Below are positions 47,465 through 49,742 of a stretch of DNA of 64,000 nt, piece by piece (position 1 is the stretch's first letter; every line of letters starts with the position of its first letter). This DNA is from Capsulimonas corticalis (GTDB lineage: Bacteria; Armatimonadota; Armatimonadia; Armatimonadales; Capsulimonadaceae): positions 3,968,001 through 4,032,000 of the forward strand of contig NZ_AP025739.1 of the NCBI RefSeq assembly GCF_003574315.2, in the 5' to 3' direction. Below the pieces are notes generated by a model. The model was not told the DNA's origin, did no database searches, and worked only from the letters and a program-made list of their open reading frames with translations. The position numbers and the translations under genes were made by a program.

Positions 47465-47698
47465 ATGGAAGTGGTCAAGATAATCCTGCTGGTGATCCAG
47501 GGATTGATCAGCGTGGCGTTCGTCTTTTTGGTGGCGACGCAGACATCCAAGAACGAGGGCTTTGGAACGATCGGCGTGCAGACGCCGGCGAACTTCAAGG
47601 GGATGCCTGGCTACGAAGAGCGCATGCAGCAGTACACCCGCAATCTGGGCATTGCGTGGTTCGCGGTCGCGCTTCTCGTCGCGTTCGTTTATCGGTAA
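47465..47698 (+). CDS. secG: Preprotein translocase subunit SecG
   Basis: 77 residues with two membrane spans: an N-terminal helix (IILLVIQGLISVAFVFLVA) and one at the C-terminal end (IAWFAVALLVAFVY), flanking a polar loop with GFGTIGVQ, as in SecG. Auxiliary subunit of the SecYEG channel. Followed by a hairpin terminator. Confidence 0.85.
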   Translation: MEVVKIILLVIQGLISVAFVFLVATQTSKNEGFGTIGVQTPANFKGMPGYEERMQQYTRNLGIAWFAVALLVAFVYR

Positions 47699-47705
47699 AA
47701 GAAAA

Positions 47706-47742
47706 AGCGCGTTCCTGAGCAGTCTTTGCTCGGGAACGCGCT
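47706..47742 (+). terminator. Hairpin after secG
   Basis: 16-bp stem with one mismatch (47706-47721 with 47727-47742), no T-run on the plus strand. Placed between the convergent secG and the small minus-strand gene. Confidence 0.6.
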
Positions 47743-47773
47743 CTCAATAATGATTGGGTTGCGTCGGGGGCGA

Positions 47774-47935
47774 TTAGGCCGCGCGGCGCTTCTGTTCATT
47801 CTGACGATTTCGCCATTCGTCGATATCGATCACGACGGCCGTGCTCTCCTGTGGCTCCGGACGAGCCGTCGCGGTAATGTACGCATAGAATGCTACGGCG
47901 CTGGCGCAGTAGCCTGCGATAATCCATAAAAACAT
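47774..47935 (-). CDS. Small membrane protein, 53 residues, unknown function
   Basis: Not an obvious family. 53 residues: one N-terminal hydrophobic span (MFLWIIAGYCASAVAFYAYI), then a charged tail with VVIDIDEWRNRQNEQKRR. A strong GGGAGGAG site lies 9 bp before its ATG and codon use is like its neighbours, so it is likely a real gene. TATAAT on the minus strand (48020-48015) could be its -10, without a clear -35. Confidence 0.6.
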   Translation of the reverse strand: MFLWIIAGYCASAVAFYAYITATARPEPQESTAVVIDIDEWRNRQNEQKRRAA

Positions 47936-48175
47936 CAACGTTCTCTCCTCCCCGCCTTCGGTAATTTGCTTAACATCATTATTGGCTTATTACCCGAAAA
48001 AGTTCTCACTTAATTATACGGTGTTTTTGCAAGAGTTCGTTTCTATTTCAAAGAATCTCACCTCATGAGATTCTTTCAACTTCACTTTTCCCCCTCTCTC
48101 CAAACTGGTCTCACGCGTCTCCCCCTGGGATATACTATATCTGTGACGATTGATCGGGTTTAGCGAGGTTAAAGA
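47936..48175. promoter_or_regulatory. Divergent intergenic region with palindrome
   Basis: 240 bp between two divergent small genes. It holds a perfect 11-bp palindrome AAAGAATCTCA / TGAGATTCTTT (48050-48060, 48066-48076, loop CCTCA), a minus-strand TATAAT at 48020-48015 and a plus-strand TATACT at 48131-48136. AT-richer than surroundings. The palindrome could be an operator serving both genes. Confidence 0.5.
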
Positions 48176-48412
48176 ATGACCATGAAGGACACATTTTTAG
48201 AAACGAATGCAGTGGTGGAAAGCGTGCGGCAGGCGTTCGACGGCGAGTCGAGCCGCCCTCAGTCGGAGTGGGTGCGCGGCAAGTGCCCGAAGTGCGGTGA
48301 CGACCTGGTGTCGAACTGCTACTATGTGGGCGGCCGCGGTTACCTGATCTGCTGGGAGTGCTGGTCGTCACTGGGCGGCGAGCCGCAGTGCAATTACCGC
48401 AAAATTCTGTAA
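48176..48412 (+). CDS. Small putative zinc-ribbon protein
   Basis: 78 residues. Two cysteine pairs, CPKCGDD and CWECW, separated by about 20 residues with YYVGGRGYLI between them, make a zinc ribbon likely; an extra Cys follows each pair. I do not recognise the family. GAGGT precedes the ATG at 48176; an ATG two codons later is possible. It lies 43 bp before a gene of unknown function that probably shares its transcript. Confidence 0.65.
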   Translation: MTMKDTFLETNAVVESVRQAFDGESSRPQSEWVRGKCPKCGDDLVSNCYYVGGRGYLICWECWSSLGGEPQCNYRKIL

Positions 48413-48455
48413 ACGCCAATTTTTGAGTATGGACACGGTTTAAGGAGATAATTCG

Positions 48456-49040
48456 ATGAGCAACTATGACAACAACCAGGGCGGCGAAGTGAGCAAGATC
48501 CAGATCTATCGCTTCGTGGCTAAAGATAATAAGATCCTCGATATCACGGACATGCTGGCGTACGATGTCAAGCGCAGCAAATTGTCGATCACCCTCGTAG
48601 AGTTCGACGACAACTGGGCCGCCACGCGCCGCGTGCGCCATTATGTGGACGCCGACGACATCAAACTCGTCTGCTACGACATCCTCTCCGGCCAGTTCAC
48701 GGCCTTCGAGGATCACAAGGGGACGGCGGGGCAGGACTACACCGAAGCCCGCGTCCTCTCCCTAAAAAAGGAAACGAAGTACCGTCAGCCTTACGTCCTG
48801 CGTGTCGACAACGGTCAGGGCGAGGTTCAGGGGCAGGGCCAGGTCAAGATGGTGAAGGCGACCGACAGCCTCACCATCCAGATGACAGAGTTCGAGGCGC
48901 GAAAGATGGCCCTGGTCATTCAGGACTATATCGCTCAGTGGGAAACGATCAACTTCCGCAAGCGTCAGGACGCGCGGACGGTGACGTTTACGCCCAGCCA
49001 GGAAGATCACCGCAAGCGCGACCACGCTCTCGCGGCCTAG
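48456..49040 (+). CDS. Hypothetical protein, 194 residues
   Basis: No signal peptide or membrane span; a charged, probably cytosolic protein. The N-terminal two-thirds alternate hydrophobic and charged residues (KIQIYRFVAKDNKILDITDML, shortened) as in beta-rich folds; an unusual GQGEVQGQGQVKM stretch follows, then a C-terminal helix region (EFEARKMALVIQDYIAQWE). TAAGGAG lies 8-9 bp before the ATG. Followed by a strong terminator. Function unknown. Confidence 0.7.
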   Translation: MSNYDNNQGGEVSKIQIYRFVAKDNKILDITDMLAYDVKRSKLSITLVEFDDNWAATRRVRHYVDADDIKLVCYDILSGQFTAFEDHKGTAGQDYTEARVLSLKKETKYRQPYVLRVDNGQGEVQGQGQVKMVKATDSLTIQMTEFEARKMALVIQDYIAQWETINFRKRQDARTVTFTPSQEDHRKRDHALAA

Positions 49041-49057: not shown

Positions 49058-49106
49058 AAACGGGGAGGCATTCGCGATGGAAATCGCGAATGCCTCCCCG
49101 TTTTTT
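49058..49106 (+). terminator. Strong Rho-independent terminator
   Basis: 21-bp perfect stem (49058-49078 with 49083-49103) with GGAA loop and six T. Ends the transcript of the zinc-ribbon and 194-residue genes; the next promoter begins directly after it. Confidence 0.93.
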
Positions 49107-49107
49107 C

Positions 49108-49137
49108 TTGACAAACGCCCTGCGATGCTTCTACTAT
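49108..49137 (+). promoter_or_regulatory. Leaderless promoter of the NUDIX gene
   Basis: Perfect TTGACA (49108-49113), 18-bp spacer, TACTAT (49132-49137); ATG at 49146 is only 8 bp after the -10, so the transcript would begin at or next to the start codon, and no ribosome binding site exists. Confidence 0.75.
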
Positions 49138-49145
49138 ATTCCTCT

Positions 49146-49742
49146 ATGGAAGAACACAAAACCCCTTGGAAAACCGTGGGCAGCCGCGAAGTCTACGTTA
49201 ACCCCTGGATCCGCATCCGCGAAGATCATGTCATCCGTCCCGACGACAAGCCCGGCATCTACGGCGTCGTCGAGTTTCAAAACTACGCGCTCGGCATCGT
49301 GCCCGTCGCCGATAACGGCGACACATGGCTCGTGGGACAGTGGCGCTATCCGCTGGACCTTTACTCCTGGGAGATCCCGGAGGGCGGGGGACCGCTGAGC
49401 ATCCCGCTGATCGACAGCGCGAAGCGTGAGCTGCACGAAGAAGTGGGTTTGGCCGCCGCCGAATGGATCGATCTAGGCCTGTTCCATCTGTCCAACTCCG
49501 TAACCAATGAAGCAGGACGCGTGTTCCTGGCGCTAGGATTGACGGAGGGCGACGCCGAGCCCGAAGGGGATGAAGTGCTTCAGATCTGGCGTCTGCCGCT
49601 CACGGAGGCGTACGCGATGGCGATGGATGGTCGGATTACAGATGGGGTGAGTATTATCGGACTGACGCGGGCGGTGGAGTATTTGCAAACCCACCCCGGC
49701 CCTTCGGGCCACCCCTCCCACCAGGCTGGGAAGGGTTGGTGA
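49146..49742 (+). CDS. NUDIX hydrolase (ADP-ribose pyrophosphatase-like)
   Basis: 198 residues from ATG 49146. Resembles ADP-ribose pyrophosphatases: WVGQWRYPLD-like LVGQWRYPLDLYSWEIPEGGG then the Nudix box with AKRELHEEVGL. The box's first half reads EGGGPLSIPLIDSAKREL, fitting the family with the GxxE glutamate less evident. The last 18 residues (from about Gln181) are encoded by the left arm of palindromic repeat copy 4, in which the stop codon also lies. Leaderless by its promoter position. Confidence 0.85.
   Translation: MEEHKTPWKTVGSREVYVNPWIRIREDHVIRPDDKPGIYGVVEFQNYALGIVPVADNGDTWLVGQWRYPLDLYSWEIPEGGGPLSIPLIDSAKRELHEEVGLAAAEWIDLGLFHLSNSVTNEAGRVFLALGLTEGDAEPEGDEVLQIWRLPLTEAYAMAMDGRITDGVSIIGLTRAVEYLQTHPGPSGHPSHQAGKGW

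Follow-up and report, generated by a model that had tools for sequence, protein, structure and literature searches.

Three conserved small genes beside secG in Capsulimonas corticalis: a predicted zinc-ribbon gene pair with a putative palindromic regulator site, and a separable membrane microgene

The secG locus and its three small genes

The window analyzed here is a stretch of 64,000 nucleotides (contig NZ_AP025739.1, positions 3,968,001 to 4,032,000) of the Capsulimonas corticalis genome, G000, a single contig of 7,645,051 bases. The secG gene (47465..47698, plus strand), recognized by Pfam SecG at 5.3e-9 and by NCBIfam secG over its cut-off, closes a tatA-tatA-secG cluster. It is followed by a convergent microgene for a single-span membrane protein (47938/47935..47774, minus strand), of 54 codons when read from a TTG and 53 when read from an ATG. 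On the plus strand lie ZR (48176..48412), which encodes a 78-residue predicted zinc ribbon, and its partner gene (48456..49040), which has TAAGGAG ahead of its ATG and encodes a 194-residue orphan protein, P194.

The sampled order, Capsulimonadales (Armatimonadota), is represented by 19 genomes in a phylum-wide set of 291, leaving 272 outside the order. The species' own family, Capsulimonadaceae (f1), contributes seven genomes and a second family (f2) contributes twelve; the sister genome is designated G001. The sampled genomes are drafts of varying completeness (87% for G003), on which absence calls depend, and the alignments behind the comparisons are shallow.

A preliminary description had presented three small genes of no known family at this locus. 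Their reality is borne out: the frames and their ribosome binding sites were found in the sequence, synteny is kept in the relatives examined, and the 53-codon frame is conserved. Between the window and the sister genome, dN/dS is 0.14 for the membrane ORF, 0.04 for ZR and 0.02 for P194; a second pair of relatives yields 0.09, 0.07 and 0.06, respectively. These values, from two independent pairs, indicate that all three frames are under purifying selection. None of the three proteins reaches a curated Pfam or NCBIfam cut-off (0/3). The locus thus adds three conserved families for which curated models are lacking, and of these the membrane microgene is readily overlooked in annotation. The families are orphan and the arrangement is of a familiar kind; general principles are not changed by these findings alone.

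We consider it moderately probable that the interval consists of two independent transcription units, namely a ZR-P194 operon and a membrane microgene belonging to the secG locus.

The membrane microgene at the 3' end of secG

The membrane ORF is preceded by GGGGAGGAG. Given that the sister genome keeps only the TTG of the two candidate starts at the corresponding place, the TTG may be the true start. Members share a core of the form A-x-FY-x2-[LI] ... TA-x-[PE]-[DE]-P, most of them having TA-x-[PE]-[DE]-P after A-x-FY. All seven f1 members end in R[RK]AA (-RRAA in the window), an ending that was considered as a possible protease tag. Among ORFs of at least 150 residues in eight loci, 6 of 112 end in AA, two of these being P194 itself; the f2 members of the membrane family and two P194 members have no such AA-type C-terminal end.

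Between secG and the membrane gene lies a GC-rich hairpin (47706..47744), and the 76-nt minus-strand stretch containing it folds at -30.0 kcal/mol. Since a T-run follows on the minus strand, the hairpin is likely the terminator of the membrane-gene transcript; similar hairpins occur at the corresponding position in all three relatives folded. On the promoter side, a -10-like TATAAT is found at 48018..48013 (minus strand) from sequence and alignment, and it is poorly kept in relatives.

A microgene convergent to secG was found in 12 of the 18 assessable Capsulimonadales genomes. In f1 it stands 3' of secG in 7/7 genomes, including two without ZR-P194 (G003 and G005). In f2 it occupies the corresponding secG position in G007, G010, G011, G015 and G018, with peptides of about 28-46 residues. 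This count leaves out an ORF of G008 that is probably a further member, and G017 could not be assessed because its contig ends 7 bp past secG. Hydropathy and inspection by eye, with the stretches partly rechecked, revealed no microgene in G014 or in any of the four sampled members of genus g8. Weak membrane-protein matches outside Capsulimonadales were set aside. Its presence at secG across two families indicates that the link of the microgene to secG is older than its link to ZR-P194.

This second unit would then be a microgene for a single-span membrane peptide of 28-60 residues, convergent to secG, terminated by a hairpin and with its resident place at the 3' end of tatA-tatA-secG. Within the membrane, its product would likely have an accessory role as a small peptide; the membrane role and any Sec/Tat link are suggested by the position at secG only. 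Small single-span membrane proteins of known kind include CcmD and CcoQ/FixQ, which the microprotein resembles in size, single span and charged tail. Unlike these, it has no Pfam match to them and its gene lies 3' of secG.

Second copies of the microgene were observed at L119:5933-6160 (G004), L120:5759-5929 (G006) and L121:5985-6158 (G002), those of G006 and G002 adjoining a glycosyltransferase-like gene.

The ZR-P194 pair and its phage relatives

In all ten genomes in which both are visible, ZR and P194 are neighbors on the same strand. ZR was detected in 10/19 Capsulimonadales genomes and P194 in 12/19; in the two with P194 only (G011 and G015), the contigs start within P194. The other 7/19 yielded neither gene. 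Across the whole phylum set the P194 count remains 12 of 291 genomes, with none in the 272 Armatimonadota genomes outside the order. The pair adjoins secG in five of the seven f1 genomes. In f2, no secG is present in the stretches around the pair, and in G007 and G010 secG lies on other contigs than ZR-P194, or far off.

A terminator-like hairpin with a 20-bp stem (49058..49103, plus strand), identified by folding, ends the ZR-P194 transcription unit. We propose that the two genes form a bicistronic operon, served by a promoter and a terminator of its own. A NUDIX gene follows, whose longest ORF (49077..49742) begins within this hairpin; its likely true start is the ATG at 49146, after TTGACA-18-TACTAT at 49108-49137.

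The four cysteines of ZR (C37, C40, C62 and C72) are invariant in 13/13 aligned members, from which we infer zinc binding. The best Pfam match is Zn_ribbon_Top1, with an E-value of 0.0082 and 16.4 bits, below the cut-off of 32, and a sequence comparison against the PDB gives a weak match to the RPA12 ribbon (E 0.014). The structure model has strands at 33-36, 43-51 and 55-62, and with a mean pLDDT of 50 it is too poor for fold assignment. ZR resembles C4 zinc ribbons of the Zn_ribbon_Top1 and TFIIS/RPA12 types in its CPxCG knuckle with two more cysteines, at a spacing of C-x2-C-x21-C-x9-C. It departs from them in its second cysteine pair, which is C-x9-C and not C-x2-C, in an invariant GY and a strongly kept W-[ED]-C, and in Pfam matches that all fall below cut-off. 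The YnfU family (NF038384) is likewise small, bacterial and zinc-binding, yet ZR scores only 13.8 bits against its cut-off of 36.

P194 is 96% identical between the window and the sister genome (L050). A match to Top6b_C (PF18000) reaches 16.4 bits, below the cut-off of 28.6, and appears weakly in 2/12 members. No PDB sequence match was obtained up to E 1, and none was obtained against plasmids. A structure model built from four sequences has a pLDDT of 34, too poor for fold assignment. A tandem beta4-alpha (PUR/Whirly-like) fold with two related halves was considered for P194. In hhalign comparisons built on a shallow alignment, the two halves matched each other no more closely than did 20 column-shuffled controls, and PF11680 was not found in the species' own genome.

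Most likely, the ZR and P194 products would form a small complex of zinc ribbon and partner in the cytoplasm and act jointly, touching nucleic acid or the transcription machinery. Neither protein shows a known DNA-binding domain, and given the neutral pI of P194 (6.9), the nucleic-acid role is only a guess.

Beyond the order, ZR occurs without P194 in three genomes of family f7, as well as in G024 and G038. In two of the three f7 genomes it lies directly 3' of tatA-tatA-secG. These two f7 copies (L117:6185-6427 and L118:6147-6389) share the strand of the cluster and adjoin a gene for a 106-residue acidic, cysteine-containing protein with no Pfam match at E 0.01. Weak matches inside ORFs of 722 and 852 codons, in G242 (E 1.4e-4) and G262 (E 4.8e-4) respectively, were set aside. 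The C. corticalis genome itself carries a distant ZR paralogue of 41% identity in a mobile-looking region (G000:C1:1814302-1814484, L067), near a frame that reads by eye like a small helix-turn-helix protein.

Full-length ZR homologues were also found in two temperate-phage contigs of IMG/VR, at L072:6001-6228 and L073:6001-6270, with 74% and 63% identity. One directly precedes a frame resembling, by eye, a terminase small subunit; the other is about 1.1 kb ahead of a terminase large-subunit gene. PHROGs confirmed an integrase in both contigs, along with terminase and portal for L073 and the major head protein for L072. Since 7/19 Capsulimonadales genomes contain relatives of the L073 terminase, such phages probably infect this order. 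These homologues provide a handle on phage-host interplay in Armatimonadota.

That ZR has been traded between hosts and temperate phages, with the ZR-P194 pair as a phage packaging-region gene in exapted or defensive form, is a reading we consider unlikely. It draws on the position of the homologues ahead of the terminase region, on the terminase relatives in the order, on a tree of 18 ZR proteins in which the phage copies group, weakly supported, with the Capsulimonadaceae host copies, and on a second ZR copy in G006 with an integrase-like gene about 1.7 kb away. Against it, P194 has no phage relative: its viral matches (29% identity over residues 20-118, inside a 536-residue phage protein) were taken as chance. 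Moreover, the pair sits at stable chromosomal places, ZR also stands 3' of secG in f7, another family of the phylum, and no PADLOC anti-phage defense family matched any of the three proteins.

The palindrome and the ZR-P194 promoter

The preliminary description had also noted a control region with a perfect 11-bp palindrome and -10-like boxes in both directions, and these features are indeed present in the sequence. The palindrome, AAAGAATCTCA-CCTCA-TGAGATTCTTT (48050..48076, centre 48063), has perfect 11-bp arms around a 5-nt loop and a core of AWTCTCA-N5-TGAGAWT. An inverted repeat of at least 10 bp arose in 0 of 2000 block shuffles of its intergenic region. The -10 box of the ZR-P194 operon lies at 48131..48136 (plus strand), reading TATACT here and TATAAT in four relatives. 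In an alignment of the intergenic region from five f1 genomes, the palindrome core and a GATATA[A/C]TATA -10 region are conserved.

A scan of the seven f1 genomes found the exact site ahead of the operon in 5/5 genomes with ZR-P194, spread over three genera, and in 0/2 without the pair; a reversed control pattern was found in none of the seven. In 5/5, the ZR -10 hexamer begins 68 bp from the palindrome centre. The 58-bp spacer between palindrome and -10 box contains no indel, yet its pairwise identity is just 41-86%. The -10 box lies 38-47 from the ZR start, and the palindrome centre anywhere between 91.5 and 127.5 nt from the start of the membrane gene.

A sixth exact site, at G004:C368:15821-15839 (L152), precedes a gene of the glyoxalase/bleomycin-resistance family (PF00903, E 5.3e-10). 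There, a TAGAAT begins exactly 68 bp from the palindrome centre, and it is the sole hexamer on its strand of the 158-bp gap with at least 5/6 matches to TATAAT, a level that 0.16% of strand positions reach across the examined loci. Since the 68-bp distance had already been fixed by the ZR promoters, this putative promoter offers an independent check of the spacing, albeit in one instance. In the C. corticalis genome itself, two sites with one mismatch have no -10-like box (at least 5/6) at 68 bp.

Ahead of ZR in f2, f7, G024, G038 and the phages, no copy of the palindrome was found. Its absence from the f2 promoters indicates that control through the palindrome is family-specific. Literature searches returned no match for the site sequence, nor for small proteins associated with secG in Armatimonadetes.

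These observations bear on two statements of the preliminary description, that the three genes may form one membrane-linked unit and that they share a divergent control region. Under such a reading, the palindrome would be a shared operator and the membrane peptide would anchor, or sense for, ZR-P194. The palindrome does lie between the divergent genes in all five genomes with both at the locus, where it may affect the membrane gene too, and in the window the -10 of the membrane gene is closely followed, downstream, by a half-site-like GTTCTCACTT (48001-48010). Nonetheless, the membrane gene stays at secG in the 2/7 f1 genomes that lack ZR-P194, and in f2 it stands at secG with the pair elsewhere, so that the units are separable. 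Furthermore, the spacing of the palindrome is exact to the ZR promoter alone, and no copy of the palindrome was found ahead of the membrane gene in G003, G005, G007 or G010. A single regulatory unit is hence rather improbable, and the preliminary description is borne out only in part, its control region being real but one unit with a shared operator unsupported.

The palindrome could instead act as an RNA hairpin or a cruciform and not as a protein site. Between the window and G004, the outer stem has changed on both sides (A-T to G-C, two pairs) and arms of 11-12 bp are kept despite these changes. This alternative is highly unlikely, given that the inner core is invariant and not covarying, the outer pairs are broken in G001, G002 and G006, the spacing to the -10 box is exact, and the palindrome lies upstream of both putative -10 boxes, which by this reading places it outside both leaders.

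The likeliest role of the palindrome is that of an activator site for ZR-P194, with activation favored over repression, and not that of an operator shared by the divergent genes. In the proposed mechanism, the operon would have a DNA-binding regulator dedicated to it, probably an activator. By binding the palindrome, some 80 bp ahead of the start site, this protein would sit on a fixed helix face relative to RNA polymerase and would turn the ZR-P194 operon on. At class I activator-dependent promoters, activator sites lie at set distances from the start, those of CRP, for instance, near -61.5, -71.5 and -81.5. With the -10 hexamer set as -12 to -7, the palindrome centre falls near -80, which is compatible with class I activation at a helical-phase position. 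The ZR promoter resembles class I promoters in having a palindrome at a fixed spacing upstream of a sigma70-type -10 box, a centre at about -80 from the presumed start and poor -35 matches. The site AWTCTCA-N5-TGAGAWT differs from the CRP consensus, and unlike CRP and class I systems it has only one or two exact copies per genome, which suggests a regulator with one or two targets. A precise promoter architecture is thereby gained in a phylum with little genetics.

A broader proposal would make ZR-P194 the main output of a Capsulimonadaceae-specific regulon, whose activator reads a recognition sequence of a new type, rigidly placed at -80. Given the glyoxalase/bleomycin-resistance-like gene among its targets in one species, such a regulon may answer chemical stress, and phage ZR mimics would interfere with it or use it. 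We regard this proposal as speculative and rather unlikely. Contig C368 of G004, on which the sixth site lies, also bears a phage-terminase relative at C368:9484-10905.
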